Source: Pseudomonas flavescens (GTDB lineage Bacteria; Pseudomonadota; Gammaproteobacteria; Pseudomonadales; Pseudomonadaceae). Taken from it: a stretch of 64,000 bases of DNA. Numbering within the stretch: the first letter of the stretch is position 1; each line of letters opens with the position of its first letter. The DNA is taken from contig NZ_JACBYV010000001.1 of NCBI RefSeq assembly GCF_013408425.1, positions 248,001-312,000 on the forward strand. The letters are read 5' to 3'. The notes under the pieces are model-generated. The model did not search any database, was not told the origin of the DNA, and saw only the letters and a list, made by a program, of their open reading frames with translations. Positions 45,804-61,513 of this stretch are shown piece after piece. The position numbers and the translations under genes are program-made.

Positions 45804-46919
45804 ATGGAACCCATGCGCCTCAAGCCCGCCACTTTCGTCGTTTGCTTATTGCCTGTCGTCCTGGTGGCGTGCGGCGATTCTTCCGTCAGCAAAGATCCAC
45901 GCAACAAGCCGCCGCTGATCAGGGCGGCAGCGGTCGAGAACGCGGTCGACGTTTCTCGTTCATTCACCGGTGTGGTGGTCGCACGCACCCAGAGTGATCT
46001 GGGTTTCCGCGTGTCGGGCAAAGTACTCGAGCGCTTGGTCGACACCGGGCAGACGGTCAAACGCGGCCAGCCGTTGATGCGCCTCGACCCTGTCGACCTG
46101 CAATTGCAGGCGCGCGCCCAGCAGGAGGCGGTCGCATCCGCCAGTGCAAGAGCCAGGCAGACGGCTGATGACGAGGCCCGTTATCGCGGCCTGGTTGCAG
46201 CCGGTGCGGTGTCGGCATCGGCCTACGATCAGATCAAGGCCGCCGCCGATTCCGCGAAGGCGCAACTCAGCGCGGCGCAAGCTCAGGCGGACGTGGCGCG
46301 TAATGCCACGGGCTACGCGGCGCTGCTAGCCGATGCCGATGGCGTGGTGATGGATACCCTGGCCGAGCCCGGCCAGGTGGTCAGTGCCGGGCAACCGGTG
46401 GTGCGCCTGGCACGCGCCGGCCAGCGCGAAGCCATCGTGCACCTCCCCGAAACCCTGCGCCCGGTGCCGGGTTCCACGGCCCAGGCCATCCTGTATGGCG
46501 ACAGCGGCGCTGCCGTTACCGCCAAACTGCGTTTGCTCTCCGAGGCCGCTGATGCCACCACCCGCACCTTCGAAGCCAGGTACGTGCTCGACGGCGCGCT
46601 GGCGAACGCGCCGCTCGGTTCGACCATCACCCTGAACATCGCCAGGGAAAGAAACGCCGCTAACGTGCTGCAAGTGCCCATCGCCGCGCTCCATGACCCT
46701 GGCAATGGCACCGGCGTGTGGGTCATCGCTGGAGAGCCGGCGAAAGTCTCCTGGCGCCCCGTTGAGGTGCTGGGCATCGGTGATGAGGCGGCGCGTGTCG
46801 CCAGCAAGCTGGACGCGGGCGAGCAGGTCGTAGCGCTGGGCGCGCACCTGCTGCGTGATGGTGAAGAGGTGAGGGTGGCCCAGGCGGCTGGCGCGTCGGT
46901 CGCCGGGAGTCAGCCATGA
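45804..46919 (+). CDS. RND efflux periplasmic adaptor (membrane fusion) lipoprotein
   Basis: Links the inner-membrane RND pump to the outer-membrane channel. In 371 residues, a lipoprotein signal ends at VLVAC (about 20-24), then come a barrel-sandwich/lipoyl part (VSGKVLERLVDTGQTVKRGQPL), a coiled-coil hairpin (about 95-165) and beta-barrel domains. ATG 45804 and ATG 45813 are both possible starts; neither has an ideal ribosome site. The stop overlaps the pump start (ATGA). Confidence 0.93.
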   Translation: MEPMRLKPATFVVCLLPVVLVACGDSSVSKDPRNKPPLIRAAAVENAVDVSRSFTGVVVARTQSDLGFRVSGKVLERLVDTGQTVKRGQPLMRLDPVDLQLQARAQQEAVASASARARQTADDEARYRGLVAAGAVSASAYDQIKAAADSAKAQLSAAQAQADVARNATGYAALLADADGVVMDTLAEPGQVVSAGQPVVRLARAGQREAIVHLPETLRPVPGSTAQAILYGDSGAAVTAKLRLLSEAADATTRTFEARYVLDGALANAPLGSTITLNIARERNAANVLQVPIAALHDPGNGTGVWVIAGEPAKVSWRPVEVLGIGDEAARVASKLDAGEQVVALGAHLLRDGEEVRVAQAAGASVAGSQP

Positions 46920-49900
46920 GCGAGGGGCGTTTCAACCTGTCCGCCCTTGCCGTCCGCGAGCGCTCCATCACGCTGTTTCTCATCCTGCTGATCGCGGTGG
47001 CCGGCACGCTGGCGTTCTTCCAGCTGGGCAGGGCGGAAGACCCACCCTTTACCGTCAAGCAGATGACCATCATCACCGCCTGGCCGGGCGCCACCGCCCA
47101 GGAAATGCAGGATCAGGTCGCCGAGCCACTGGAAAAGCGCATGCAGGAGCTGCGCTGGTACGACCGCAGTGAAACCTTCACCCGCGCGGGGCTGGCGATC
47201 ACCATGGTGTCGTTGCTCGACAGCACGCCGCCCTCGGCGGTCCAGGAGGAGTTCTACCAGGCTCGCAAGAAGCTTGGCGATGAAGCCAAGACGCTACCGG
47301 CTGGCGTTGTCGGGCCGATGATCAACGATGAATTCTCGGATGTGACCTTCGCGGTGTATGCCCTGAAGGCCAAGGGCGAACCGCAGCGCCAACTGGTGCG
47401 TGACGCCGAGTCGCTGCGTCAGCGGCTGTTGCACGTGCCGGGGGTCAAGAAGGTCAACATCATCGGCGAACAGGCCGAGCGGATTTTCGTCTCCTTCTCC
47501 CATGACCGGCTGGCCACCCTGGGCGTCACGCCGCAGGACATCTTTGCCGCACTCAATAGCCAGAACGTACTGACGCCCGCCGGATCGGTCGAAACCAGCG
47601 GGCCGCAGGTGGTGGTGCGCCTGGATGGCGCCTTCGACAAACTGGCGAAGATCCGCGAAACCCCGATTGCCGTGCAGGGCCGTACGCTGAAGCTTTCCGA
47701 TGTGGCGACGGTGGAGCGCGGCTATGAAGACCCGGCCACCTTTCTGGTCCGCCATGGCGGCGAGCCTGCGTTGCTGCTCGGTGTGGTGATGCGCGAAGGC
47801 TGGAACGGCCTCGATCTCGGCACGGCGCTCGACGCCGAAACGGCGAGCATCAACGACGCCATGCCGCTGGGCATGACGCTCAGTAAAGTCACCGATCAGG
47901 CGGTCAACATCACTTCGTCCGTCGACGAGTTCATGGTCAAGTTCTTTGTCGCGCTGCTGGTGGTCATGCTGGTCTGTTTCCTCAGCATGGGCTGGCGTGT
48001 GGGCGTCGTGGTCGCCGCTGCCGTGCCGCTGACGCTGGCCATCGTCTTCGTGGTGATGGCCGCCACGGGCAAGAACTTCGACCGCATCACCCTCGGCTCG
48101 CTGATTCTCGCCCTGGGCCTGCTGGTGGACGATGCCATCATCGCCATCGAAATGATGGTGGTGAAAATGGAGGAGGGCTACGACCGCTTCAAGGTGTCGG
48201 CCTATGCCTGGAGCCACACCGCCGCGCCGATGCTTTCCGGCACCCTGGTAACCGCCATCGGCTTCATGCCCAACGGTTTCGCGCAGTCCACGGCCGGTGA
48301 ATACACCAGCAACATGTTCTGGATCGTCGGCATCGCGCTGATCGCCTCCTGGGTGGTGGCCGTGGCGTTCACGCCTTATCTGGGCGTGAAGCTGTTGCCG
48401 AATATCAAACAGGTCGAAGGCGGCCATGCGGCCATCTACAACACCCGCCACTACAACCGTTTCCGCACGCTGCTGGCGCGCGTCATCGCCCATAAATGGC
48501 TGGTGGCAGGTGCGGTCATCGCCCTGTTCGTGGTGGCCGTGCTCGGTATGGGGCTGGTGAAGAAACAGTTCTTTCCAACCTCCGACCGCCCCGAGGTGCT
48601 GGTCGAACTGCAGATGCCATACGGCACCTCCATCGAGCAGACCAACGCCACCGCCATCAAGGTCGAGTCATGGCTGCGCGAGCAGGAAGAAGCCAAGATC
48701 GTCACCTCCTACATCGGCCAGGGCCCGCCGCGATTCTTCCTGGCCATGGCCCCTGAACTGCCCGATCCGTCGTTCGCCAAGATCGTGGTGCTGACGGACA
48801 GCCAGGAGGCCCGCGAAGCTCTCAAGGCGCGCATCCGGGAAGCGGCCTCCGAAGGGCTGGCGCCCGAAGCCAAGGTGCGCGTCACGCAACTGGTATTCGG
48901 CCCTTACTCGCCATACCCGGTGGCATATCGGGTGATGGGCCCCGACCCCATGCAGTTGCGGGAGATCGCTGCTCGCGTACAGGACGTGTTGCAGGCCAGC
49001 CCGATGATGCGCACGGTGAACGCCGACTGGGGCCCACTGGTACCGACCCTGCATTTTTCGCTGGACCAGGATCGCCTGCAGGCCGTGGGGCTGACCTCCA
49101 GCACAGTCGCGCAACAGCTGCAGTTCTTGCTCACCGGCGTACCGATCACCTCGGTGCGCGAAGACATCCGCTCGGTGCAGGTGGTCGGTCGCGCAGCCGG
49201 GGCTATTCGTCTCGATCCCGCGAAGATCGAGGGCTTCACCTTGGTCGGTGCGGCGGGCCAGCGCATTCCGCTCTCGCAGATCGGCGAAGTCGATGTACGC
49301 ATGGAAGACCCCATCCTGCGCCGTCGTGACCGCACGCCGACCATCACCGTACGCGGTGACATTGCCGAAGAGCTGCAACCGCCCGACGTCTCCGCGGCGG
49401 TCTGGAAAGACCTGCAGCCGATCATCGAGACGTTGCCTGCCGGCTACCGTATCGAAATGGCCGGCTCCATCGAGGAATCCGGCAAGGCCAGCCAGGCGAT
49501 TCTGCCGCTGCTGCCGATCATGATCGCCCTGACGCTGCTGATCATCATCCTGCAGGTGCGCTCGATCTCGGCCATGGTCATGGTGTTCCTCACCTCGCCG
49601 CTGGGGTTGATCGGCGTGGTGCCGGTGCTGCTGCTGTTCCAGCAGCCGTTCGGTATCAATGCCCTGGTTGGCCTGATCGCCCTATCGGGCATCCTGATGC
49701 GCAACACGCTGATCCTGATCGGGCAGATCCACCATAACGAAAGCGAGGGGCTCGACCCGTTCAATGCGGTCGTCGAGGCCACGGTACAACGAGCCCGGCC
49801 GGTATTGCTGACCGCGCTGGCGGCCATCCTCGCCTTCATTCCGCTCACCCATTCGGTGTTCTGGGGCACGCTGGCGTACACGCTGATCGGCGGGACTTTC

Positions 49901-50038
49901 GTCGGCACCATCATGACCCTGGTGTTCCTGCCGGCGATGTATTCCATCTGGTTCAAGATTCGCCCCAGCACCGTCACCGCCGAGCGACCTGACGCCGAAC
50001 GAGGCGGGCGCACAGCGAACACGAGGAGCCTGCAATGA
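46916..50038 (+). CDS. RND efflux permease (HAE1-type, TriC-like)
   Basis: The proton-driven inner-membrane pump, 1040 residues with 12 membrane segments and two large periplasmic loops (about 35-330 and 560-860). The paired aspartates of the proton relay are present in GLLVDDAIIAIEMM (about 400-413). The E-M-M context, rather than E-N-V, suggests the subgroup that includes TriC (triclosan efflux), not the MexB subgroup; this is a by-eye judgement. Translation is coupled to the adaptor and to the downstream ketosynthase by ATGA overlaps. Confidence 0.93.
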   Translation: MSEGRFNLSALAVRERSITLFLILLIAVAGTLAFFQLGRAEDPPFTVKQMTIITAWPGATAQEMQDQVAEPLEKRMQELRWYDRSETFTRAGLAITMVSLLDSTPPSAVQEEFYQARKKLGDEAKTLPAGVVGPMINDEFSDVTFAVYALKAKGEPQRQLVRDAESLRQRLLHVPGVKKVNIIGEQAERIFVSFSHDRLATLGVTPQDIFAALNSQNVLTPAGSVETSGPQVVVRLDGAFDKLAKIRETPIAVQGRTLKLSDVATVERGYEDPATFLVRHGGEPALLLGVVMREGWNGLDLGTALDAETASINDAMPLGMTLSKVTDQAVNITSSVDEFMVKFFVALLVVMLVCFLSMGWRVGVVVAAAVPLTLAIVFVVMAATGKNFDRITLGSLILALGLLVDDAIIAIEMMVVKMEEGYDRFKVSAYAWSHTAAPMLSGTLVTAIGFMPNGFAQSTAGEYTSNMFWIVGIALIASWVVAVAFTPYLGVKLLPNIKQVEGGHAAIYNTRHYNRFRTLLARVIAHKWLVAGAVIALFVVAVLGMGLVKKQFFPTSDRPEVLVELQMPYGTSIEQTNATAIKVESWLREQEEAKIVTSYIGQGPPRFFLAMAPELPDPSFAKIVVLTDSQEAREALKARIREAASEGLAPEAKVRVTQLVFGPYSPYPVAYRVMGPDPMQLREIAARVQDVLQASPMMRTVNADWGPLVPTLHFSLDQDRLQAVGLTSSTVAQQLQFLLTGVPITSVREDIRSVQVVGRAAGAIRLDPAKIEGFTLVGAAGQRIPLSQIGEVDVRMEDPILRRRDRTPTITVRGDIAEELQPPDVSAAVWKDLQPIIETLPAGYRIEMAGSIEESGKASQAILPLLPIMIALTLLIIILQVRSISAMVMVFLTSPLGLIGVVPVLLLFQQPFGINALVGLIALSGILMRNTLILIGQIHHNESEGLDPFNAVVEATVQRARPVLLTALAAILAFIPLTHSVFWGTLAYTLIGGTFVGTIMTLVFLPAMYSIWFKIRPSTVTAERPDAERGGRTANTRSLQ

Positions 50039-51327
50039 TCGATTCGCAAAGACATAAACGCATCGTGGTAACCGGCACCGGTATCGTCGGGCCGCTGGGT
50101 TGTGGCGTCGACGAGGTGTGGCGCCGGCTGCTGGCCGGGCGCTCGGGCATTGCCACGCTGCCGACAGCGATCACCGAAGGCACCGGTGTAACCGTGGGCG
50201 GGCAAGTGCCGATGCTGGAGGACGATGCCGTTGCCGGGTACCGACCCGAGCTGATCATCCCCGACAAAGAACGCAAGAAGATGGACCGCTTCATCGAGTT
50301 CGCCCTCGTTGCCGCGCAGGAAGCCTTGCAGCAGGCCGGCTGGCACCCGACCAGCGAAGCAGAGCAGCAGCGAACGGCGACGATCATCGCCTCGGGTGTG
50401 GGTGGCTTCGGTGCCATGGCCGAAGCCGTGCGGATTACCGATTCGCGTGGGCCACGCCGGCTCTCGCCGTTCACCGCGCCGTCGTTTCTCGCCAACATGG
50501 CGGCGGGGCACGTCTCGATCCGTCACGGTTTCAAAGGCCCGCTCGGCGCGCCAGTGACTGCCTGCGCTGCTGGCGTGCAGGCGATTGGCGATGCGGCCCG
50601 GCTGATCAGAAGCGGCGAAGCGGACGTCGCCATTTGTGGCGGCACGGAAGCGGCCATCGACCGCGTGACCCTTGGCTGCTTCGCGGCGGCCCGTGCGCTC
50701 TCCACCGGCTTTGCCGAGCGGCCGCAAGAGGCGTCGCGGCCCTTCGACCGAAACCGCGACGGTTTCGTCATGGCCGAAGGCGCCGGGCTTTTGGTGATCG
50801 AGTCGCTGGAGCACGCCCTGGCACGCGGCGCCACGCCGCTGGCCGAACTGGTGGGCTACGGCACCAGCGCCGACGCCTACCACCTCACGGCCGGCCCGGA
50901 AGATGGCAGCGGCGCCCGCCGCGCCATGCAGCAAGCGCTCGCCCAGGCAGGCCTGAGCGCCGCCGATGTGCAGCACATCAATGCCCACGCCACCTCGACC
51001 CAGGTTGGCGACAAGGGCGAGCTGGCGGCCATCCGCTCGCTGTTCGGCCAGGACTCATCCGTCGCCATCAGCTCGACCAAGTCCGCCACGGGCCATCTGC
51101 TGGGCGCGGCTGGCGGTATCGAAGCGATCTTCACGGTGCTGGCGCTGCGTGATCAGGTCGCGCCGCCTACCTTGAACCTGGGCGAGCCCGATGAGCGCGC
51201 CGCAGGGCTCGACCTGATCGCGCTGACGGCCCGCAAGATGCCCATCACCCACGCGCTCTCGAATGGCTTCGGGTTTGGCGGCGTCAATGCCAGCGTGTTG
51301 TTCCGCCGCTGGGAGGCCACGCCATGA
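50035..51327 (+). CDS. FabF-like beta-ketoacyl-ACP synthase in an efflux operon
   Basis: A condensing enzyme of the KAS II family, 430 residues, that would extend acyl-ACP with malonyl-ACP. The catalytic triad is complete: Cys177 (VTACAAG), His318 (NAHATST) and His354 (SATGHLLGAAGG). The usual NAHGTST is NAHATST here, a Gly-to-Ala change next to the catalytic His. It lies between an RND pump and an MFS exporter, with 4-nt overlaps on both sides, and not in the fab cluster. It could be a drug-insensitive FabF duplicate or a biosynthetic KS; both ideas are inference. Confidence 0.9.
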   Translation: MIDSQRHKRIVVTGTGIVGPLGCGVDEVWRRLLAGRSGIATLPTAITEGTGVTVGGQVPMLEDDAVAGYRPELIIPDKERKKMDRFIEFALVAAQEALQQAGWHPTSEAEQQRTATIIASGVGGFGAMAEAVRITDSRGPRRLSPFTAPSFLANMAAGHVSIRHGFKGPLGAPVTACAAGVQAIGDAARLIRSGEADVAICGGTEAAIDRVTLGCFAAARALSTGFAERPQEASRPFDRNRDGFVMAEGAGLLVIESLEHALARGATPLAELVGYGTSADAYHLTAGPEDGSGARRAMQQALAQAGLSAADVQHINAHATSTQVGDKGELAAIRSLFGQDSSVAISSTKSATGHLLGAAGGIEAIFTVLALRDQVAPPTLNLGEPDERAAGLDLIALTARKMPITHALSNGFGFGGVNASVLFRRWEATP

Positions 51328-52562
51328 GCGCCGAAAGCCAGCCGGTAGCACTCGATGCCGCAACGACTCGCGAAGGCAGCCCGGCATTGACGGGTAAAAT
51401 CGTCGCCTTGCTGGCGAGCCTCTCGGCGATCAGCATCCTCTCCACCAACATCATCCTTCCTGCCTTCCCGGAAATCGGCCAGCAGCTTGGCGTTTCCTCT
51501 CGCGAACTGGGGCTGACTCTCTCCAGTTTCTTCATCACCTTCGCATTCGCTCAATTGGTGGTGGGGCCACTGGCAGATCGGTACGGGCGCAAGCGGCTCG
51601 TTCTGGGCGGCCTCGCGCTGTTCGTGATCGGCACACTGGTCGCAGGTTTCGCCAACAGCCTCGACGTGCTGATTGCCGGGCGCGTCATACAAGCGCTCGG
51701 GGTCTGCGCCGCCGCCGTGCTGGCGCGGGCCATTGCCCGTGATCTGTTCGAAGGCGAAACCCTGGGACGTGCGCTGTCGCTGACGATGATCGCCACTGCG
51801 GCAGCACCCGGATTTTCACCATTGCTCGGCAGCGTGTTGACCACCGCGCTGGGGTGGCGGGCGATCTTCTTGATGGTCGGAGTCGCCGCCGTGGTCATCG
51901 CCTTCTTCTACGCCCGGGGTCTTGGCGAAACACTGCCCCGAGAACGCCGAGTCGCGCTCTCGGCACCGAGCGTGGTGGCCGCTTACGGCAGATTGCTCCG
52001 CGACGGCAAATTCATCCTCCCGGCCGCCTCGGTGAGCCTGTTGATGAGCGGCCTGTTCGCCTCCTTCGCAGCCGCACCGGCGATCCTGATGAGCGGGATG
52101 GGCTTGTCGTCATTGCAGGCCGGGCTGTACTTCGCCGCTACCGTGTTCGTCGTATTCGCCGCCGGCATGGCCGCGCCACGCCTGGCCCATCGCTTTGGTA
52201 GCCGCACGATCACCACCCTGGGCCTGGTCACCGCATTGGTGGCCGGCAGCCTGCTGCTAATCGGCCCGAACAACCCTGGCTTGGGCTGGTACTCGATCTC
52301 GATGGTGATCTTTCTCTGGGGCATGGGCCTCGCCAACCCGCTGGGCACCGCCATCACCATGGGCCCCTTCGGCAAGGAGGCGGGCCTGGCCTCCGCACTG
52401 CTCGGCTTCCTGACCATGGGCGCCGCCGCGATCACCACTTGGCTGGTGTCGGTGCTGGAATTCGCGCCGGTAAGGACGTTGGGCGCAACCCAGGTTGCGG
52501 TTTGCCTTGTTGCGGTGGTGTTGTTCACGTTGAGTAGTAGGACGGTCAGAGCGTCGAGTTAG
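51324..52562 (+). CDS. MFS multidrug exporter (Bcr/CflA-like, DHA1 family)
   Basis: A proton antiporter of 412 residues with 12 predicted membrane segments. The DHA1 motif A is present in the loop after segment 2 (GPLADRYGRKRL, about 78-89) and motif C-like glycines in segment 5 (ATAAAPGFSPLLGS). The best match by eye is Bcr/CflA-type drug exporters. It is the last gene of the TetR-regulated operon and is coupled to the ketosynthase stop (ATGA). Confidence 0.9.
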   Translation: MSAESQPVALDAATTREGSPALTGKIVALLASLSAISILSTNIILPAFPEIGQQLGVSSRELGLTLSSFFITFAFAQLVVGPLADRYGRKRLVLGGLALFVIGTLVAGFANSLDVLIAGRVIQALGVCAAAVLARAIARDLFEGETLGRALSLTMIATAAAPGFSPLLGSVLTTALGWRAIFLMVGVAAVVIAFFYARGLGETLPRERRVALSAPSVVAAYGRLLRDGKFILPAASVSLLMSGLFASFAAAPAILMSGMGLSSLQAGLYFAATVFVVFAAGMAAPRLAHRFGSRTITTLGLVTALVAGSLLLIGPNNPGLGWYSISMVIFLWGMGLANPLGTAITMGPFGKEAGLASALLGFLTMGAAAITTWLVSVLEFAPVRTLGATQVAVCLVAVVLFTLSSRTVRASS

Positions 52563-53046
52563 GAATGGCTGGAGAGGGAGCGGTTGGATGTTCTTTGCGA
52601 GTTAGTGAGGCTTCGATGGGCTATCGACACACTTGAACATCGCTCACAAAAAAGCCCTGCAAAAACAGGGCTTGATGTTTCTAATCTGGGCTTAGGGAGT
52701 CGAACCCTTTTCCAGCTACAGCAAGGCTCCGCAAAGCCCCTGCATTGCTCGCTTGCGCGCGGATTTTACACGCTTTACTCAGCTTTGCACCGCAGTGCTT
52801 TCGACACTTTTTCGACACAGCCTCTCGCGGGCCTTGCACCTTCCCCACGCCTTTGTGTATACACGTCCAGTAGTAATGAAAGCATGAAATATGCAAGTCA
52901 AGCGAGCACGCCTCGGTGGATGTTCTGCATTCTAATTTATTGAAAAATAACGTCTTCCTTGATTTTTGAAGTTAGGCATTTTTGTAGTTATACCGCTTTC
53001 CTCACTATTGGCTTAGCGCGGAAGACTATCTAATTACTGAGCTAGT
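52563..53046. other. Gap after the efflux operon: tRNA-like fragment and left edge of AT-rich DNA
   Basis: No gene is supported. From left to right the 484 bp hold: a short spacer; the tRNA-Gly-like 3' fragment with its terminator (52648-52712); a transition zone with a direct repeat TCGACAC-TTTT-TCGACAC near 52800-52817; and clearly AT-rich sequence from about 52870. That sequence leads to GTTAGGC at 52971-52977, the proposed start of an integron cassette. Confidence 0.7.
52648..52712 (-). pseudogene. Decayed tRNA-Gly(CCC) 3' end with terminator (att-like duplicate)
   Basis: On the minus strand this reads AAGGGTTCGACTCCCTAAGCCC, then AGATTAGAAACATCAAGCCCTG and a hairpin AAGCCCTG/CAGGGCTT. 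It aligns with the T-arm, acceptor 3' end and downstream terminator of the intact tRNA-Gly(CCC) at 60119-60192. The main difference is loss of five bases (GCTCC) at the acceptor end. Nothing of the D-arm or anticodon arm is present. Same orientation and position relative to the intact gene suggest a duplicated attachment site, now degraded. Confidence 0.65.
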
Positions 53047-53322
53047 ATGCACCCTAAGAATATCAAACTATGGCTACTTACTTCGCTCCTGGCACTGTCA
53101 GTACGCTTTTGTGCCAGTATTTATTACCTATATATAGGATGTCCTAGAGTTTTGGGGGAATGCTACAACGAAGGCGCGGATGCTGCTTTCTGGCCGATAG
53201 CAATTTCGATGCTGACATTTTACATATCTGCTCTGGCAATTATTATCATAGTAACAGTCAGAACAGCTATGGTTTTGGTGCGCCTTGCGAGGCAAGTATT
53301 TACATCCAACAGCTCTAACTAG
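53047..53322 (+). CDS. Cassette 1 ORF: small two-pass membrane protein of unknown function
   Basis: A 91-residue protein with two hydrophobic segments (about 8-30 and 48-72) joined by a loop containing three cysteines in total near the membrane (CASIY, CPRV, ECYNE). The C-terminus is basic then Ser/Asn-rich. No family is recognised. Codon use is AT-rich, unlike neighbouring chromosomal genes. The stop TAG overlaps the left core of the following attC-like site, as is usual for integron cassettes. There is no clear ribosome site. Confidence 0.6.
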   Translation: MHPKNIKLWLLTSLLALSVRFCASIYYLYIGCPRVLGECYNEGADAAFWPIAISMLTFYISALAIIIIVTVRTAMVLVRLARQVFTSNSSN

Positions 53323-53380
53323 TAGTTTATGTCGCTCGCTCGGGACGGGCTAAAGCCCGTCCCTTAACCAAACGTTATGC
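53313..53380 (+). repeat. attC-like site of cassette 1
   Basis: The left core is CTCTAAC (53313-53319), then a 5-nt spacer and a GTTTATG inner box. The central perfect 9-bp stem is GGGACGGGC/GCCCGTCCC (53342-53350 and 53355-53363) with loop TAAA. The inner box CTTAACC and right core GTTATGC (53374-53380) follow. It shares CGCTCGCTC, GGCTAAAGCC and CCCTTA with the second site. The left core only partly complements this cassette's own GTTAGGC. Confidence 0.72.
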
Positions 53381-53435
53381 GCCCAGTTGCAATAATTTCA
53401 AAATAAATAGTTATCGCTCTCTGCTTGAGGTCGCC

Positions 53436-54248
53436 ATGTCACGTTACAAAAAAACAAGGATCCTCTTAATGATTTTTGCCACTTTTATATTCTTAATATT
53501 TGCAATAAAAATAAAATACAACATTCCTAACAATAGAGTTATTGGTGTCACAGAAGGTTTTATAGAAATCCCATGCGCCAAACCCGTTCCAGATACAAAA
53601 TGCAGTGCACCCGACCAAAGTAGGATAGCTTTCTATTTAACGGCGCCAGATCAAGCCATATCATACCCTCCAGTCGGGAGGGACTATAATGATTATGTTG
53701 GTATAGGCCTATTTGTGTCCGACAAAACAGTCGAGACCATATACGAAAACAAAAAAAGAGATGGTGCCAGCCAAAATTATCTCATAGGAAGCCACGTCGA
53801 CACTGTGCGCATATCTTACAGCGCTGAGAATGAACTTGGCGCGCAACTGCAGTGGCTAAGTCTTACCCCAAAAGCCAAATATTCTGAAGTCACGAGCGAC
53901 ATAGAGGGCTACCGAAAATTTGATGACACAACCTGCCCTGCAACTGGCGCAGTTATAAATAAAAATTCACTCCCTGAAGAAGATTACATACGCTGTACAG
54001 CAATGCGGAGAGCCTTATATGTCTCTAGAAATCATCCGAACACACTAATTAGCTGCATGCAAATAATGCCCTCAGATAATATTATAAGGTTGCACACGTG
54101 CACGATCACAACAAAAATTGCTTTTGAAGGCCGCGCTAGGTATTCAATTCAGCCGAAACACGTCCTTAGCGGTAAATGGACTGAACTAAATGAAAAAATT
54201 GTTAAATATATTAATGAGCTATTAGTTTCAGCAAACAAGAGCGCATAA
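53436..54248 (+). CDS. Cassette 2 ORF: hypothetical protein with one N-terminal membrane anchor
   Basis: A 270-residue protein. A basic N-terminus (SRYKKTR) precedes one membrane segment (about 9-27, rich in Ile, Phe and Leu). The remainder is a soluble, probably periplasmic domain with six or so scattered cysteines, which could form disulfides. No known family is recognised. GAGG lies six bases before the ATG. Codon use is AT-rich. The TAA stop lies inside the left core of the next attC-like site. Function is unknown; integron cassettes often encode envelope, toxin-antitoxin or defence proteins. Confidence 0.7.
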   Translation: MSRYKKTRILLMIFATFIFLIFAIKIKYNIPNNRVIGVTEGFIEIPCAKPVPDTKCSAPDQSRIAFYLTAPDQAISYPPVGRDYNDYVGIGLFVSDKTVETIYENKKRDGASQNYLIGSHVDTVRISYSAENELGAQLQWLSLTPKAKYSEVTSDIEGYRKFDDTTCPATGAVINKNSLPEEDYIRCTAMRRALYVSRNHPNTLISCMQIMPSDNIIRLHTCTITTKIAFEGRARYSIQPKHVLSGKWTELNEKIVKYINELLVSANKSA

Positions 54249-54320
54249 CAAGTGGTACAAATCGCTCGCTCCGTTCGTTGGGGATTGGCTAAAGCCAGCC
54301 CCTTAGCTTAATCGTTACCA
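54243..54320 (+). repeat. attC-like site of cassette 2
   Basis: The left core is GCATAAC (54243-54249), an exact complement of the GTTATGC that opens this cassette. A 5-nt spacer (AAGTG), an inner box GTACAA, a central imperfect stem GGGGATTGGC/GCCAGCCCC with loop TAAA, and an inner box CTTAGC come next. The right core is GTTACCA (54314-54320). The overall length of 78 bp and bulged stem are like the pseudomonad attC sites described from chromosomal integrons. Confidence 0.78.
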
Positions 54321-54830
54321 TTCGAATAGCTTTAGTCCCACTTGGCTCCATGTGTCCGGGCAATCCAGCGTCTAGCTTCCTGGGTGATCGCTATCCCGCG
54401 TTGGGTTGGCTCAAGTTTCGGTTTGCTTCGTCGTAGTCTGGGCTTGTCTGGCCTATCTCTGGCGCGATCTGCCCGCTAGCAATCCAAAAAGTATATTTGT
54501 AAAAAAGGGGGACAGATTTATTTATGAGCCGCCAGCTGGCTCGGTGTCGGAACTAAAATAATTCTTTCACCTTTTCTATGGTACTGGGGTTCGCGTCGGT
54601 ACGACGGTGGGCCGCTCGCCTCTCTAGATAGCGATGGGGGGCTGTGCGAGCAGGGCTCAGTGGCTGGCACCGATGGGGCGGGTCTGCTCGTGATCCCAGC
54701 GGCTGTGTCTTCAGCCTCTTTGCCCTTTGTGCCTTGCAGATCCGCTGATTTGCATTTGATTCTCCAGTGCAATTGTTAGTGAATATCAACTGAATTAGAA
54801 TCGCGGCCCCTCCCACCAGGACCGCCTTTC
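54249..54830. other. Gap between cassette 2 and the TonB receptor gene (about 580 bp)
   Basis: Apart from the attC-like site at its left end no gene is supported. The middle returns to higher GC. It contains AAAAAAGGGGGACAGATTTA (about 54501-54520), a phrase often seen beside REP-associated or IS-type transposase remnants, though no transposase is visible. The last 80 bp before 54831 are AT-rich and should hold the receptor promoter; a clear Fur box was not found. Confidence 0.55.
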
Positions 54831-56945
54831 ATGCGCTGGAATCACGCCTCAATCTGCCTGCTGTCCCTGTGTTCCGTTGGCGTTCATGCCGCAACGTTGG
54901 CTGCGTCGGAAGGCGCGGCAGTCGAGCTTCCGGATTCCGTCATCACTGGCACCAGCGAGAGTGCCACGGGCCCTGTGCTTGGTTATGGCGCCACGCGTTC
55001 GGCCAGCGCTACGCGCACCGATACCGCCTTGCACGAGACGCCGCAGTCGGTGAGCGTGGTGTCCCGTGATGTGATCGAGGACATCTCCGCGACTCGCTTG
55101 CAGCAGGCGCTGGATCAGGCGGGTGGCGTAGGTCGTGCCAACAACTTTGGCGGCCAGGGGCTGACCACCTTCACGGTGCGTGGCTTTACCACCGGCGAGT
55201 TCTACCGCAACGGCTTCCCGATCAATCGCGGCTATCCCAACTCGCCGGATGCCAACACCCTGGAGCGAGTCGAAGTGCTGCGTGGCCCAGCCGCGACGCT
55301 CTATGGTCGCGGTGATCCCGGTGGCACCTTCAACGTCATCACCAAGCAGCCATTGGCCGAGCAGCGTACGACGGTTGGCAGCCAGTTCACCGATCAGGGT
55401 TTGCGTCGTGGCACGCTGGACACCAGCGGCCCGCTCGACGAGGAGGGCCGCCTGGCCTATCGCCTGAATGTCATGGCCGAAGGGGGCGACAGCTTTCGTG
55501 ATGATGTGGAAAGCGAGCGCTATGGCATCGCCCCGGTGTTGAGCTGGCAGGTGTCGGACGACACGCGCATCGTTCTGGAGGGTGATTTCATGCGCAACAA
55601 TCACCCGCTGGATCGCGGCCTGACCCATTACCCGACCCAGCGCGGGCAACCCAGCCACTCGACCTATTACTGGGAGAAGGGCACCGATAACAAACTGCAC
55701 AACGATAACGCCATGGTGCAACTGCGCTTCGAGCATCAGCTCAATGATGACTGGGCGTTGAGTGGCGGTTATCAGTACCTCGACGGCTCGCTCAAGGGCA
55801 ATGCGGTGGAAGCCAACGGTGTTGCCGTTGATGGTGTGACGCTCAACCGCAACTTCAACTACCGCAAACTCGAATGGACCGACCATGACGTGCAACTGCA
55901 CCTGACCGGTCACTTCGATACCTTCGGTTTCGGCCACACCCTGATCACTGGCGCGGAGTACGAGAACTACGATTACCAGTCGATCATCAATCGCTCCACC
56001 GCTGCGTATCCGATCAATATCTTCAACCCGGTTCTCGGCCAGCCACGCCCAGCGCTGGGCAATATCACCACTCATGATCGCGAAAAGCTGAAGACCTGGG
56101 CGGCTTTCGTGCAGGATCAGGTAGCCCTGACCGAGCGCCTGAAAGTGCTGGGCGGCGTGCGCATCGAGCGTTTCGAACATGATTATGATGATCTCAGGCC
56201 GGTGAACGCCGACTGGGACATGGCCGACAACGCCGTGACCCCGCGTGTCGGCGTTATCTACGACCTGACCGACAGCGTTGCCGTCTACGCCAACGCCTCC
56301 AAATCGTTCAAGCCCAACTCCGGCGCGGCGCGTCTGGGTGGCGGGTTTGATCCGGAGGAGGGCAAGGCCTACGAGCTGGGCATGAAGTGGGCAGCGCTGG
56401 GTGGCTTGCTGAGCATCGATACGGCGGTGTTCCACGTCACCAAGGAAAACGTCCAGACCGTCGACCCGGTCGACCCAGCCTTTCGGATTGCCGCGGGTGA
56501 AGTGCGCAGCCGTGGCTTCGAGGTGAACGTGGCGGGTGATCTGACGCCCGAATGGCGAGTCATCGGCGGCTATGCCTACACGGACTCCGAAGTGACGCGT
56601 GACAACTCGCTACCGCGTGGCACCCGCCAAGCCAACATCCCGCGCAACAGCTTCAACCTGCTGAGCGTGTATGAGTTCCGCGATGGCGCGCTGCGTGGCT
56701 TGGGCCTGGGCGCCAACTTCAAGTACGTGGATGATCGTGCCGGCCAGACGGCGGCGCAGACCTACACCATGGAGAGCTATGCAGTTACCGACCTGCTGAG
56801 CTTCTATCAGGTCAACGAGCACCTGCGGCTGAATCTGGATGTGCGTAACGTCTTCAATAAAGGCTACGAAGAAGGCGCCTTCAACGCCTATGCCTATCCG
56901 GGTGAGCCACGCACCGTTCAGACAGGGTTCGCTTACACCTTCTGA
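54831..56945 (+). CDS. TonB-dependent siderophore receptor
   Basis: An outer-membrane gated channel for ferric siderophores, 704 residues. A signal peptide (about 1-21, ending VHA) is followed by a TonB-box-like segment (LPDSVITG), a plug domain (about 65-180: ETPQSVSVVSRDVIED, FTVRGF, VEVLRGPAATLYGRGDPGG) and a 22-strand barrel ending in a terminal Phe (TVQTGFAYTF), which helps BAM recognition. The plug motifs fit the FhuA/FoxA/FpvA-type siderophore receptor family. There is no N-terminal signalling domain. The ligand is unknown. The next three genes encode the matching inner-membrane importer. Confidence 0.93.
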   Translation: MRWNHASICLLSLCSVGVHAATLAASEGAAVELPDSVITGTSESATGPVLGYGATRSASATRTDTALHETPQSVSVVSRDVIEDISATRLQQALDQAGGVGRANNFGGQGLTTFTVRGFTTGEFYRNGFPINRGYPNSPDANTLERVEVLRGPAATLYGRGDPGGTFNVITKQPLAEQRTTVGSQFTDQGLRRGTLDTSGPLDEEGRLAYRLNVMAEGGDSFRDDVESERYGIAPVLSWQVSDDTRIVLEGDFMRNNHPLDRGLTHYPTQRGQPSHSTYYWEKGTDNKLHNDNAMVQLRFEHQLNDDWALSGGYQYLDGSLKGNAVEANGVAVDGVTLNRNFNYRKLEWTDHDVQLHLTGHFDTFGFGHTLITGAEYENYDYQSIINRSTAAYPINIFNPVLGQPRPALGNITTHDREKLKTWAAFVQDQVALTERLKVLGGVRIERFEHDYDDLRPVNADWDMADNAVTPRVGVIYDLTDSVAVYANASKSFKPNSGAARLGGGFDPEEGKAYELGMKWAALGGLLSIDTAVFHVTKENVQTVDPVDPAFRIAAGEVRSRGFEVNVAGDLTPEWRVIGGYAYTDSEVTRDNSLPRGTRQANIPRNSFNLLSVYEFRDGALRGLGLGANFKYVDDRAGQTAAQTYTMESYAVTDLLSFYQVNEHLRLNLDVRNVFNKGYEEGAFNAYAYPGEPRTVQTGFAYTF

Positions 56946-56952
56946 TGGCTGT

Positions 56953-56984
56953 TCCGGTCAGGCATCTACCCATGCCTGACCGGA
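56953..56984. terminator. Hairpin between convergent TonB receptor and ABC ATPase genes
   Basis: TCCGGTCAGGCAT (56953-56965) and ATGCCTGACCGGA (56972-56984) make a perfect 13-bp stem with a 6-nt loop. It starts 7 bp past the receptor stop and overlaps the last codons of the ATPase gene. There is no T-run, so rho-independent action is uncertain. Confidence 0.5.
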
Positions 56985-57755
56985 GAGCGGCTGCACCACG
57001 GGGCGGTTCTGCCGATCCCGCAGGATGTCGACCGTGACGCCGTAGGTTGCCTTGATCAGCTCAGCGGTGATGATTTCGCCTGGATGGCCGCTGGCGGCCA
57101 GCTTGCCATCGACCAGCACCAGCAGATTGTCGGCGTACTGACAGGCCAGATTGAGGTCGTGAAGAACGACCACCGTTACCAGGTTCCTGGCGCGTGTTTC
57201 ATGCTGCACGCGGTCGAGCAGGGCGACCTGATGGCGCAGATCCAGGGCGCTGACGGGTTCATCCAGCAGCATGACTTTCGGTTCGCGCATCAATACCTGA
57301 GCGAAGAAAACCATCTGCCGCTGGCCGCCGCTGAGTGAGCCGATTGCTTGCCCGGCCAGGTGCGCGATACCTACCTGGCCGAGCTTCTCCATGGCGCGCT
57401 GCAACAGCGCGTCATCGAGGCGCAGGCCGATCTGACCCAGGTTGCCCAGCACCACGACCTCGAGCACCGACAGCGACACCTCGCTGCTGCAGTCCTGAGG
57501 CATATAGGCGAAGTCTTCGCGCCAGGCTTGCAGTACTCGTCGCGAATGCCGGCCGCCAGCTAGGCTCTGCTGCCCCTGGGTAATACGCCCGCCTGCCAGC
57601 GGCAGGTCGCCCATCAGCGCACGTAACAAGGTGGTCTTGCCGGTGCCGTTGGGGCCCAGCACGACATGAATGGCGCCCGCCTGAAGATTGGTGCTCAGCC
57701 CGTTGATGATGGTTCGCCCAGCGCGGGCGATACTGAGTTCGTCGAGCTGGATCAT
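56958..57755 (-). CDS. Iron-siderophore ABC transporter ATP-binding protein (FecE-like)
   Basis: The ATPase of a ferric-siderophore importer, 265 residues. The Walker A is GPNGTGKTT (about 34-42), the signature LSGGQRQ (about 143-149) and the Walker B VMLLDEP (about 160-166), followed by the H-loop region VVLHDLN. It overlaps the permease gene by 4 nt, so the two are coupled. It acts at the inner membrane with the FecCD-type permease and the binding protein. Confidence 0.94.
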   Translation of the reverse strand: MIQLDELSIARAGRTIINGLSTNLQAGAIHVVLGPNGTGKTTLLRALMGDLPLAGGRITQGQQSLAGGRHSRRVLQAWREDFAYMPQDCSSEVSLSVLEVVVLGNLGQIGLRLDDALLQRAMEKLGQVGIAHLAGQAIGSLSGGQRQMVFFAQVLMREPKVMLLDEPVSALDLRHQVALLDRVQHETRARNLVTVVVLHDLNLACQYADNLLVLVDGKLAASGHPGEIITAELIKATYGVTVDILRDRQNRPVVQPLSGQAWVDA

Positions 57756-58804
57756 GGTCTGCCTCGCTGTGGTGCGAATATCAACCAGAGCAGGAATGGC
57801 ACGCCGACGATGGCCGTCACGATACCAATCGGGAACAGTGCGCCGGGCAGGATGGACTTGGACAGCACCGATGCCGCCGACAGCATGAAGGCGCCGCAGA
57901 GTGCGGAGAGCGGCAGCAGGAAGCGCTGATCTTCACCGACCAGCAGCCGCGCGATGTGTGGGGCTACCAGCCCGACGAAACCGATTACGCCAACGAAGCT
58001 GGTCGCCGTTGCAGTCATCACGGCGACGAGTATCAGAATCTTCAGGCGCAGCCAGCGGATGTTCACCCCCAGGCTTACCGCTCGCGCTTCACCCAGGCTA
58101 AGGGCGGCCAGCTTCCAGGCGTCACCCATGAGAATCAGGCAGCAGGCCAGGGTCACCACCGCGGTGATGGTCAGGGTCGTCCAGGTGGCTTTGCCGAGGT
58201 TGCCGAACAGCCAGAAGAGGATCTGCTGGGAGAGCTCCGGCGAGGACAGGAACTGCACGAGCGAGAGCAGCGACTGGAAGAGGAACAGCATGGCGATTCC
58301 TCCCAGAATGATCGTATGGCTGCCGGCTTGACGCAGCGTGGCCAGCGCGAACAGGAACAGAACCGCCAGCATGGAACAGGCGAAAGCGCCCAGTGGCACG
58401 CCGATCAAGGCGCCCAGCCCGAAGCTGCCGAAGGCCAGGCTAAGCGCTGCACCAAACCCCGCTGCAGCTGCCATGCCCAGGGTGTAGGGGCTGGCCATGG
58501 GGTTGTTCAGCAAAGTCTGCATCTGTGCGCCACCGGCGCCCAGAGCGGCGCCTACCGCCAGGGCCATAAGTGCCACGGGCAGGCGCAGATCACGGACGAT
58601 GGTGTCGGTCATTGGCTGGCGATCGCCAATGTTCAGCAGCGATTGCAGCACTTCCCAGGGCGACAGCAGTGAAGGCCCCGTGGCGATATCCAGTACCAGG
58701 CAGCCGCCGCACAGAAGGACGAACAACAGGCAGTTGCGCCAACGCTTGCGCTCACGCAGGCGGTGCTCGGCAATGGCGTCTTTTTCGAGTGTCGATGGGG
58801 TCAT
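57752..58804 (-). CDS. Iron-siderophore ABC transporter permease (FecCD/BtuC family)
   Basis: A polytopic inner-membrane permease, 350 residues with about ten membrane segments, as in FecCD proteins. The family regions LRLPVALMALAVGAALGAGGAQMQ and GFVGLVAPHIARLLVGEDQR are clear; the latter contains the ATPase-docking loop. The N-terminus is charged and cytoplasmic. It is 12 bp downstream of the binding-protein gene. Confidence 0.94.
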   Translation of the reverse strand: MTPSTLEKDAIAEHRLRERKRWRNCLLFVLLCGGCLVLDIATGPSLLSPWEVLQSLLNIGDRQPMTDTIVRDLRLPVALMALAVGAALGAGGAQMQTLLNNPMASPYTLGMAAAAGFGAALSLAFGSFGLGALIGVPLGAFACSMLAVLFLFALATLRQAGSHTIILGGIAMLFLFQSLLSLVQFLSSPELSQQILFWLFGNLGKATWTTLTITAVVTLACCLILMGDAWKLAALSLGEARAVSLGVNIRWLRLKILILVAVMTATATSFVGVIGFVGLVAPHIARLLVGEDQRFLLPLSALCGAFMLSAASVLSKSILPGALFPIGIVTAIVGVPFLLWLIFAPQRGRP

Positions 58805-58816
58805 GGGAGGCTGGGC

Positions 58817-59935
58817 TTAATCATTGACGCCGATGGCGTACGTGCCTTCGGCGGCCACCGGCAAGTACGTGCGGTGGTAGTTCAGGTAATTGGCCACGGG
58901 GTCGAGATCGGCGAACAGCTCCGGGTAGAGCTGCTTGGCGATGAATTGCAGCATGGCGAAATCGCCCAGGCTGCGAGACGCTCCCTGGTAAACCCCGTAC
59001 AGCCGCCCTTCGCGGATGGCAGGCAATTGCGCCCAGCCTGGGCGAGAGGCAAACGCCTGCAATTGCTGGCGCGCCGTCTCGGCTTTTACACCGGGGCCCA
59101 TGGACAGCGCGGTTGGGTTGCTGTTGTCCTCGCGACCGGAGATGACAATGACCTCAGGGCGGGCAACCAGCACCTGCTCAGGATTGATCGGCCCCCACCA
59201 CTCCACGAAGGGAGCCGCAATGTTGTCGCCACCCGCGGCTGTCGCCAGGGCGCCCCACATGTTCTTGCCGTAGGTGAACGAGTATTCGGCCGGCCCCTTG
59301 TTACCGAATTCGAGGTAGATGCGCGGCTTGGGTTTGTGCGCATCGGCAATACGTTTTTCCACGTCCTTGACGGCGGTTGTATAGAGGTCGGCCAACTCCC
59401 GTGCCCTGGCTTCTTGCCCGGTCACGGCCCCCAGCAGCAGGGTGGAGGCGACGTGCCGCTCCAGGGTCTGCGCGTTGTAGTCGATGACCAGTACCGGTAC
59501 ACCGGCCTTTTGCAGGCGTGCCACTTCATCTGGCAAACCCTCGAATTGCCAGGCCGTCAGCACCACCAGATCCGGGTTGAGGCTCAACACTTTCTCGACC
59601 GAGAAGCTCTGCGTTTCCACCTCGCCCACATCAGCAAGGCGATCAAGGGCCGGGCGATGAGCCACATGCAGTTGCCAGTTCAAGGGCACCTTCTTTTCCC
59701 AGGCGCCCCGCGAAATGCCCACCACCGAGTCGAACGCCGAATCACCACCTACGGCTATGTAGTCTTCGAAGTTGAAACCCAGAATCACCCGCTTGGCCGG
59801 CAAGGGCGCGGTAACGCTGCGGCCCAGCACATCGACCACCTGGCGAGACTCCGCATGGGAAAAGCTAGAGAAAAGAAAAGCGAGAAGCATTACTGCCAAT
59901 AGGTAAGCGCGTTGCCTGGTCATCTTTCTCATCAT
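58817..59935 (-). CDS. Iron-siderophore ABC transporter periplasmic binding protein
   Basis: A cluster A-type (BtuF/FepB/FhuD-like) periplasmic solute-binding protein. A signal peptide (RAYLLAVMLLAFLFSSFSHA) is followed by the mature domain starting RQVVDVLGRSVTAPLPAKRVI, with the two-lobe fold joined by a long helix (QTLERHVASTLLLGAVTG). ATG 59935 is used; ATG 59923 and 59932 are equally possible, and the frame opens at 59980. It is the first gene of the import operon and would hand the ferric ligand to the permease. Confidence 0.9.
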   Translation of the reverse strand: MMRKMTRQRAYLLAVMLLAFLFSSFSHAESRQVVDVLGRSVTAPLPAKRVILGFNFEDYIAVGGDSAFDSVVGISRGAWEKKVPLNWQLHVAHRPALDRLADVGEVETQSFSVEKVLSLNPDLVVLTAWQFEGLPDEVARLQKAGVPVLVIDYNAQTLERHVASTLLLGAVTGQEARARELADLYTTAVKDVEKRIADAHKPKPRIYLEFGNKGPAEYSFTYGKNMWGALATAAGGDNIAAPFVEWWGPINPEQVLVARPEVIVISGREDNSNPTALSMGPGVKAETARQQLQAFASRPGWAQLPAIREGRLYGVYQGASRSLGDFAMLQFIAKQLYPELFADLDPVANYLNYHRTYLPVAAEGTYAIGVND

Positions 59936-60079
59936 CCGGTTTATATACGTGGCGGATTCCAGCGGTCGGTCTGGGTACAAGCGGTCATCCGGCTGCGTGA
60001 AATGACACAGGGTTGCAGGCAGTGGCAGCTACTCTTCGCGTCACGTGCCACAACGAGGAACGGCTCCCGCCCAGATACG

Positions 60080-60105
60080 AAAAAGCCCTGCGAGAGCAGG
60101 GCTTT
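60080..60105 (-). terminator. Terminator of tRNA-Gly(CCC)
   Basis: On the minus strand AAAGCCCTGC, loop TCTC, GCAGGGCTTTTTC. It lies 14-39 bp past the tRNA 3' end. A degraded copy of this hairpin follows the tRNA-like fragment at 52648-52712. Confidence 0.85.
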
Positions 60106-60118
60106 GGTGTTTCCGATC

Positions 60119-60192
60119 TGGAGCGGGCTAAGGGAATCGAACCCTCGTCATGAGCTTGGGAAGCTCAGGTAATGCCATTATACGAAGCCCGC
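60119..60192 (-). tRNA. tRNA-Gly (CCC)
   Basis: The minus strand from 60192 reads GCGGGCTTCGTATAATGGCA, with the stem GAGCT-TCCCAAG-like anticodon arm giving anticodon CCC (loop TTCCCAA), the T-arm GAGGGTTCGATTCCCTT and the acceptor end AGCCCGCTCCA. The length is 74 nt with CCA encoded. Its 3' half and terminator are duplicated in degenerate form at 52648-52712, in the same orientation. Confidence 0.95.
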
Positions 60193-60205
60193 TTTTGCGT
60201 GCGTC

Positions 60206-60211
60206 TTTATA
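60206..60211 (-). promoter_or_regulatory. -10 element of tRNA-Gly(CCC)
   Basis: TATAAA on the minus strand, 13 bp before the tRNA 5' end, followed by a GACGC discriminator. The expected -35 position 17 bp upstream reads TTCATT, a weak match. Confidence 0.55.
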
Positions 60212-60290
60212 CCGGAAGTCGTCTGCGAAATGAAGCCCGCGTCGGCCAGAAATGTGTCTGGAGCGGTGTACGGGCCCGGTTTTCTGCTGC

Positions 60291-61169
60291 TCATACGGCC
60301 ATGGCGTGCGGCAGGCCGGGGTAGCTGGTGTAGCGCCGGCTGCTGGCGGTGCTGCCTTGCAGGAAGCCGAGCAGGGCGTTCTGGGTCTGCAGCCAGGCGC
60401 CTTTGTGTTCCATGTCGATGAAGTGGCCAGCGTTGTCGACGGTGGCGAACTGGCAGTCGTCGATGTGTTGGGCGAGCAGGCGGGCGTCGCTGGCGCTGGT
60501 GTATTCGTCGTGTTCGCCGTTGATGAACAGCAGGGGGATGTCGATGCTTGCCAGGCGGTCCATGTGGCAGTGGGCCTGCATGCGCAGCACCTGCTGAATG
60601 TGCGCGTTCATCTGCCGGTATTCGTGGTGGCTCAGGCTGCTGATGTGTTTGTGGTTGTAGCGCTTGAACAGCGCGGGCAGGTATTTGCCGATGGTGTCGT
60701 TGACCAGGTGGCCGACCCTGTCGCTGTCCTGCAGGCACGCCAGGGCGCGGCCCAGGTAGTCGAGCATGGGCGCGTTGAGCACCGGGGAGAACGAGGCGAA
60801 TACCGCTTTTTCCAGGCTGGCCGGGCGTTCGCAGAGGGCCTGCATGCTGGCGATGCCGCCCCAGGAGAAGGCCATCAGGTACTGCGCCTGATAGTGGTCG
60901 ATGAGGTCCAGCAGGATCGCGGCTTCGTCTTCCTGGCTGAGGCAGTGGTCGTTGCGGTTGTGGGGCTTGGAGCGGCCCGCATAGGGCTGGTCGTAGAGCA
61001 CCACGTTGAACTGGGGGCCGAGGTATTTGACCGTTTGCGCGAAGGAGGCGGTCGTCGACAGCGAGCCGTTGACCAGGATGATGGTCTTGCGGGCCGCGGG
61101 GTTGGTATGGAATTCCGTGTGTACCTTGTACGTCCCGTGGACATCGACGACAGCGGTTGCTGGCTTCAT
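60291..61169 (-). CDS. phaG: (R)-3-hydroxyacyl-ACP thioesterase/transacylase PhaG (RhlA-like)
   Basis: An alpha/beta-hydrolase that draws (R)-3-hydroxyacyl groups from fatty-acid synthesis towards medium-chain polyhydroxyalkanoate; its close relative RhlA makes the rhamnolipid lipid part. The product is 292 residues. Blocks shared with PhaG include TIILVNGSLSTTASFAQTV, FNVVLYDQPYAG and LVNDTIGKYLP. The nucleophile is Ser in FSWGG, with a later Asp (NGEHDEYTS) and His (GHFIDME). The C-terminus (HAMAV) is like that of PhaG. No pha or rhl partner is nearby. Confidence 0.88.
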   Translation of the reverse strand: MKPATAVVDVHGTYKVHTEFHTNPAARKTIILVNGSLSTTASFAQTVKYLGPQFNVVLYDQPYAGRSKPHNRNDHCLSQEDEAAILLDLIDHYQAQYLMAFSWGGIASMQALCERPASLEKAVFASFSPVLNAPMLDYLGRALACLQDSDRVGHLVNDTIGKYLPALFKRYNHKHISSLSHHEYRQMNAHIQQVLRMQAHCHMDRLASIDIPLLFINGEHDEYTSASDARLLAQHIDDCQFATVDNAGHFIDMEHKGAWLQTQNALLGFLQGSTASSRRYTSYPGLPHAMAV

Positions 61170-61513
61170 GTGTATTCCTCCTGGCGCAAAAGATGAACAC
61201 GGCTGACGGGCGGGGCCGTAAACCGGGCAAGTCGGATGGTTAGCAAAGCGCCCCGGCGTGACAAGCGCATGTCAGCCAGGAGAATCTTATTATTTATGAG
61301 AAAAATCAGATGGTTAGGGCTGGGTAGAAGGAACCTGCGCGCGCACGGCGGCGGAATTCATTCATTTCCCCAGGCAGGAGCCCTTTCGCGGCAGGCGCGA
61401 GCAACCGGAATACGACAGCAGAGAGCGCACGGGCATTGGCACGCACCGCTGCGATGTCTCGTTCGAGTTAAGCAGCGCTGCGGGGCACTGACAAGGCATG
61501 TGCCGTTACTTGC
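61170..61513. other. Gap between phaG and rsuA (about 344 bp)
   Basis: No gene is seen. Near 61281-61312 an AT-rich patch (ATCTTATTATTTATGAG) on the phaG upstream side is a possible regulatory area. GGAGG lies just before the phaG start. The rest has ordinary GC and no repeats noticed. Confidence 0.5.

Follow-up and report, generated by a model that had tools for sequence, protein, structure and literature searches.

Known systems

Integrons are described in a passage of PMC3108266 as always uniting an integrase gene (intI), an attI site and a Pc, and integrase-less arrays are described in part of PMC9024848 as probably degraded integrons. In Xanthomonas, integrase-less cassette arrays (CALINs) occupy fixed chromosomal loci away from intI, and one report states that their mobilization in trans is possible (PMC12444791). 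The window examined here, that is, the whole stretch of 64,000 nucleotides of Pseudomonas flavescens DNA that was analyzed, resembles a CALIN in having two attC sites and no integrase nearby. It is unlike a CALIN in that an attI site stands before its array, and attI sites outside class 1 are, in the words of PMC9024848, poorly described and not detected by IntegronFinder 2.0. With the sedentary chromosomal integrons of pseudomonads the window shares the attI core and the attC family, as does the integron relic found elsewhere in its own genome; unlike them, it carries no intI in cis, its LexA-type box is degenerate and its chromosomal place is different. The delta-attI-type cassettes of mobile integrons also bring attI-like sequence away from intI, but there, as their description in PMC12901181 has it, attI remnants act as a site downstream of a cassette, whereas a long attI lies upstream of the array in the window. 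A further parallel is the class 1 integron copy on pMUR, in which a GGG insertion is described as abolishing LexA binding while cassettes were kept (PMC3108266). In pMUR, intI1 is reported to persist in inactivated form and a second Pc to have been gained (PMC3108266), whereas intI is gone from the modules treated here and a promoter is at most suggested by conservation.

We propose, with a probability of about 0.65, that an ancestral intI was lost from this platform and that the orphan attI kept exchanging cassettes through IntI made from another locus in the same cell. The proposal draws on sequence comparisons, namely the attI homology, the attC sites, the boundary of cassette 2, the intI-free window, the truncated intI relic 3.0 Mb away and the recurrence of such sites with varied cassettes. 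A conserved class of integrase-free attI sites whose first cassettes vary by species would open both the origin and the activity of these arrays to direct tests, and searches for intI and attC only would miss it.

Two gene cassettes in the window

The original prediction described two AT-rich units with a single ORF each, both ending in attC sites, and named an attC model among its checks. Our attC model (R2) was made from 23 sites (alignment A3) of pseudomonad genomes other than P. flavescens, with zero from its own genome, and it recovered both sites at their predicted positions. The window has two strong matches, one at 54243..54320 (66.9 bits, E 1.4e-19) and one at 53313..53380 (58.1 bits, E 1.4e-16), each of them on the bottom strand, and two weak matches (E 0.0027, inside site 1, and E 0.063) lie on the opposite strand. 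In the structure assigned automatically to R2 the stem is paired and the outer boxes are not, so the scores test sequence and stem rather than the full attC fold. The GC content of the cassette stretch is 41-45% in 500-base windows, against 57-70% over most of the flanks. Judged by these features both AT-rich units are integron gene cassettes, and the two attC sites stand close together as expected for a CALIN.

Cassette 1 (53039..53373, + strand) has a decayed left junction and encodes a protein of 91 aa (53047..53322, +); its attC is the site at 53313..53380 (+), of which the bottom strand is expected to be recombinogenic. Cassette 2 (53374..54313, +) encodes a protein of 270 aa (53436..54248, +) and ends in the attC at 54243..54320 (+), whose right core is GTTACCA. 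This second attC opens with GCATAAC, the exact complement of the GTTATGC that starts the same cassette, just as had been pointed out for this unit. The statement that the cassette proteins belong to no recognized family also agreed with our searches, since Pfam, PADLOC and NCBIfam gave no match for either ORF; for cassette 2 a possible fold similarity to a Type IV secretion immunity protein (6pdk-like) is a weak lead. Rfam returned zero matches at the two attC sites. The suggested folding of the bottom strands had a divided outcome: as DNA, site 1 was well apart from its shuffles (z -3.65) and site 2 was not (z 0.34).

An attI-type site in front of the array

The array had been taken to begin at GTTAGGC (position 52971), where the possible remains of an attI were also seen. 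An attI does appear to be present, but it is a well-kept block of about 230 bp that contains position 52971, and cassette 1 starts only at 53039. This attI-type site without integrase (52810..53038, +) was recognized by homology. A DNA search showed 52810-53039 to be one homologous block in four genomes (G084, G012, G198 and G223) at 75-76% identity over about 230 bp, and alignment with the attI region of the genome's own integron, over a stretch picked by eye, gave a global score of 35.5 against -6.6 (sd 5.0) for 500 shuffles. Alignment with attI sites beside intact or broken intI revealed the common core ATCTAATCACTG followed by GTT, and the distance from a fixed motif to the start of the first cassette was 254-255 bases in 15 modules. 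The window also scored 191.9 bits with our attI model (R1), a sequence model made from 13 solo modules, but the window itself supplied a row of that model, so this score is no independent proof. GTTAGGC at 52971 was rejected as a cassette start, the attI homology running past it to 53038 and the heptamer not being conserved there.

Crossover is expected at 53039. The first junction of the window reads ACTGAGC, and GAGC at 53039 replaces the GTTAGAGC predicted from the attC of cassette 1, which indicates that the junction has decayed, perhaps by the loss of four bases. By homology, the window has the putative attI that an integron carries in front of its array. We consider it an attI platform without integrase rather than a bare attC cluster, so that the earlier description as a CALIN holds for the cassettes and the missing intI and not for the site in front of them.

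The same homology bears on another explanation, in which the cassettes were inserted at a chance target of the attG type and no attI was ever involved. Insertion at attG has been described for E. coli (a report in PMC12444791), but the left flank of the window is homologous to attI sites beside intI and has the same core and spacing; we rejected a chance target, which would require this homology to be coincidental and which we find hardly credible.

Inside the block, GTG-N10-CAG (52855..52870, +) occupies, in the alignments, the place of the LexA-type CTG-N10-CAG of intI-linked attI sites. A further block, CTTGC...TGTGTATA, is kept in 13 of 13 modules, although a consensus scan listed no promoter there; its conservation suggests that it may be a promoter. 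Beside the attI core, one type of intI-linked site has the arms GGAAGGC...GCCTTCC, and most solo modules of the MbnB-family locus described below have GCCTTCC...GGAAG, so that the inverted arms seem to have swapped places.

The integrase of the P. flavescens genome

The genome (5.95 Mb, one contig) was searched as a whole with an integron-integrase profile. None of the six matches fell inside the 64 kb window, in agreement with the earlier statement that no intI is visible. The window is, in this respect, as a CALIN should be, with the integrase absent nearby, and it lacks the intI in cis of a complete integron. Four of the six matches come from a pair of full-length tyrosine recombinases (299 and 302 aa), which look like the XerD and XerC types; similar matches were obtained in 14 of 14 control genomes.

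The other two matches lie at 3,327,081-3,327,561, 3.0 Mb from the window. They fall in separate short frames that align with positions 12-56 and 90-171 of the 315-position profile, with no C-terminal part seen before the next gene. This intI relic is accompanied by an attI (R1, 46.9 bits) and by nine attC sites of the same family as those of the window, the closest pair being 91% identical. A truncated intI together with attI and attC sites points to an integrase that this genome formerly possessed; a usable one is no longer seen. If this was the source of IntI for the window, its truncation means that the array is probably frozen. The original prediction had offered a relic or a trans-fed cluster; a truncated intI with an array of its own is indeed present in the genome. 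The relic itself spans about 3,322,800-3,327,600 of the contig (C1; L007 5300-10110), and among the products of its cassettes are a protein of the Barstar family (E 1.1e-16) and one with DUF3916.

Solo and linked attI sites in other genomes

A search of species genomes with the module pattern uncovered loci in eight named genomes: P. khazarica, P. composti, NCCP-436, P. alcaliphila, ZH-FAD, P. toyotomiensis, P. cuatrocienegasensis (two modules) and P. mendocina EF27. Beside these loci tblastn detected no integron integrase, and weak tyrosine-recombinase similarity in two. Elsewhere in the genome, at least one uninterrupted intI was found in four of the eight (P. composti, NCCP-436, P. alcaliphila and EF27) and an interrupted one in two (ZH-FAD and P. 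cuatrocienegasensis), while P. khazarica and P. toyotomiensis had no genome-wide intI match at E 1e-30. The two solo modules of P. cuatrocienegasensis are in tandem, 2.7 kb apart (L069 401 and 3129), and the same contig has a 497-codon ORF (L069 4172-5665) that, by eye, resembles a eukaryotic-type AFG1 ATPase and that we presume could be foreign or contaminating DNA. Three attI-model matches lie within 10 kb in another genome (G570; C45 240325, 243054 and 249723).

Within the genus, R1 had matches in 33 of 398 genomes (E 0.001, a count that takes in partial matches), and within the family in 51 of 298, spread over six of 19 genera (E 1e-5); few candidates were scored per genome, so the site numbers of both scans are lower bounds. 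When 29 selected genomes were scanned more fully, 28 of them had sites at E 1e-5 or better, 55 in all. The 53 sites outside the P. flavescens genome comprise 39 without intI in cis (solo) and 14 with an intact, broken or fragmentary intI (linked), as judged from flanks of about 1.8 kb on the upstream side and mostly 3.5 kb on the downstream side, a solo share that is biased upwards because R1 was built from solo modules and five of the 39 (L162-L166) are rows of it. The 39 include two partial matches without attI core (L114 and L167), one with an altered core (L157) and one with a 29-residue intI remnant (L142, 35 bits), and two of the linked sites (L121 and L168) were entered as such on fragments.

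R2, which was trained partly on arrays scanned here and on none from the P. flavescens genome, found attC sites on the downstream side at 28 of the 39 solo sites and at 12 of the 14 linked ones. All 105 matches were downstream and in the correct orientation, with zero upstream. In 11 of the 28 solo arrays (permutation mean 1.5, maximum 6 in 5000) and in five of the 12 linked ones (mean 0.9; five was reached in six of 5000 trials), the first cassette began with the exact complement of the first attC box. The boundaries of the other 17 solo and seven linked arrays were not exact, which counts against our proposal. The LexA-type box CTG-N10-CAG was present in 13 of 14 linked versus three of 39 solo sites (Fisher p 8.7e-9).

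A second sample consisted of the best 20 of at least 59 sites outside the genus, one at a contig end having been skipped. Among these best 20, eight were linked, 11 were solo (L202 being entered as solo with a 27-residue remnant) and one with 78 bases upstream (L200) was unclassified; the LexA box was found in eight of eight linked versus two of 11 solo sites. R2, which was made in a single genus, found 16 attC at eight of the 20, all downstream and in the right orientation, and as only one of the eight linked sites was among them, R2 evidently misses other attC types.

The losses can be ordered into a decay series, with intI fragments of 72, 44, 29 and 27 residues (L121, L168, L142 and L202), then the LexA box alone (L116, L120, L130 and L186) and then bare attI. 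In our reading the intI beside the ancestral attI would have been lost and the LexA box would have decayed along with it, presumably because the box serves intI only. The decay series, and likewise the decayed first junction of the window, would also suit a plainly degraded integron, whose own integrase loaded the cassettes before intI was lost, with no feeding in trans; the loci compared further below make this unlikely.

The census speaks as well to where IntI for solo sites may come from. Nine genomes of the 53-site set, and five more among the best 20 of at least 59 sites, have both solo and linked sites, which argues against a source in plasmids or passing elements rather than in a resident integron. 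Solo arrays do occur in genomes that now have no intI (G134, G154, G324, G338, G411 and others), which counts against a resident source of IntI, and exact boundaries in intI-free G324, G338 and G411 speak for a passing one; we regard such a source as quite improbable all the same.

Chromosomal place at tRNA-Gly

The window's module lies at the edge of a stretch that differs between relatives. A degenerate copy of part of tRNA-Gly(CCC), covering its 3′ end and terminator region, is found at 52646..52708 (-), with 78% identity to 60077-60145, and is also present in G185 and G001. It is adjoined by the repeat TTTCGACAC (52799..52818, +), which also occurs to the left of other solo modules. In G185, collinearity with the left flank (89%) extends to 52807, within this repeat; the genome then carries LmuB- and LmuC-like genes (Lamassu-type defence; L169 9950-13347) in place of the cassettes, and collinearity resumes at tRNA-Gly(CCC), located at 60119..60192 (-) in the window. 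The window's genes for a TonB receptor and a siderophore importer adjoin tRNA-Gly in G001, and the attC and attI models find nothing at that place, so that this genome has part of the content without the cassettes. Both comparisons point to 52.8-60.1 kb as a variable segment at tRNA-Gly(CCC), with the degenerate copy at one edge and the tRNA gene at the other.

The repeat was considered as a part of attI, but pieces of it match many other places. The end of a phage-integrase-family ORF in P. khazarica (L063 5058-5621) contains residues matching TTTCGACAC, and from these stray matches and this ORF we take the repeat to be the probable edge of a tRNA-targeted element. An integrase gene belonging to such an element was not apparent by eye in the ORF list from 46000 to 62000, and the integron-integrase profile had no match in the window. 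By inspection, the solo modules of P. composti, NCCP-436, G134 and P. cuatrocienegasensis have look-alikes of tRNA 3′ ends to their left, where ARAGORN reports no tRNA; we therefore offer as a suggestion only that a tRNA-targeted element may have carried the solo attI module to the tRNA-Gly edge.

Differing cassettes at orthologous solo loci

Clustering of upstream flanks defined four orthologous solo loci, in 10, 4, 4 and 3 genomes, the ten-genome locus adjoining an MbnB/TglH/ChrH-family gene (Pfam PF05114). The starts of the first cassettes, copied manually from the locus comparisons, differ within every locus (21 of 21 genomes, four solo loci). For three of the four, no intI was found at the same flank among the compared loci. 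That ten species share one solo locus with ten different first cassettes, and that none of the compared loci has intI at that flank, speaks against cassettes loaded by a local integrase that was later lost. At locus B (L134, L137, L146 and L148) four species carry intI at the same flank (L045, L046/L071, L072 and L054/L080), so intI was probably lost in place there, and for that locus plain loss could suffice.

A one-cassette difference at an intI-less site also argues against plain degradation. At the MbnB-family locus, the 2 kb leading up to attI show 92.5% identity between P. mendocina EF27 and G012; EF27 then has 675 bp that are absent from G012, exactly at the solo attI, after which identity resumes at 99.6% over 276 bp, G012 differing by one base at the right junction. 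The 675-bp segment (L070 6489-7163) starts with GTTAGCT, contains one ORF of 215 codons and has a short end site that opens with AGCTAAC, the exact complement. EF27 has two uninterrupted intI elsewhere, and G012 has none above the cut-off. The end site is attC-like but of another type than is usual in pseudomonads, scoring 9 bits with R2, and may have come from another lineage, a feature that would also suit IntI brought by a passing element.

Because solo sites recur while their cassettes differ by species, it seems that an integrase made elsewhere can serve them, and under the trans-fed reading IntI supplied in trans would join attC to the solo attI. We would give even odds to the broader view that pseudomonad integrons are multipartite, with one integrase and several dispersed integrase-free attI platforms that are restocked in trans, many CALINs being docking sites in use. 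In this view some platforms would adjoin tRNA remnants, perhaps carried there by tRNA-targeted elements, with intI and LexA control lost and attI kept. If true, a genome would hold several cassette stores with one SOS-controlled integrase.

Cassettes were also compared between arrays. Within single genomes, linked and solo arrays had no cassette in common at the thresholds used (170 bp or more, 75% identity), which counts against feeding in trans. Between species, one cassette was shared by two solo arrays at 98.5% over 519 bp, and another by a linked and a solo array at 88.8% over 502 bp. A repeated element of about 1.3-1.4 kb was seen in many arrays, in the downstream parts of L116, L119, L126, L127, L135, L148, L152 and L166, several copies lying exactly at the first attC; we presume that it could be an insertion sequence of the IS1111-attC type.
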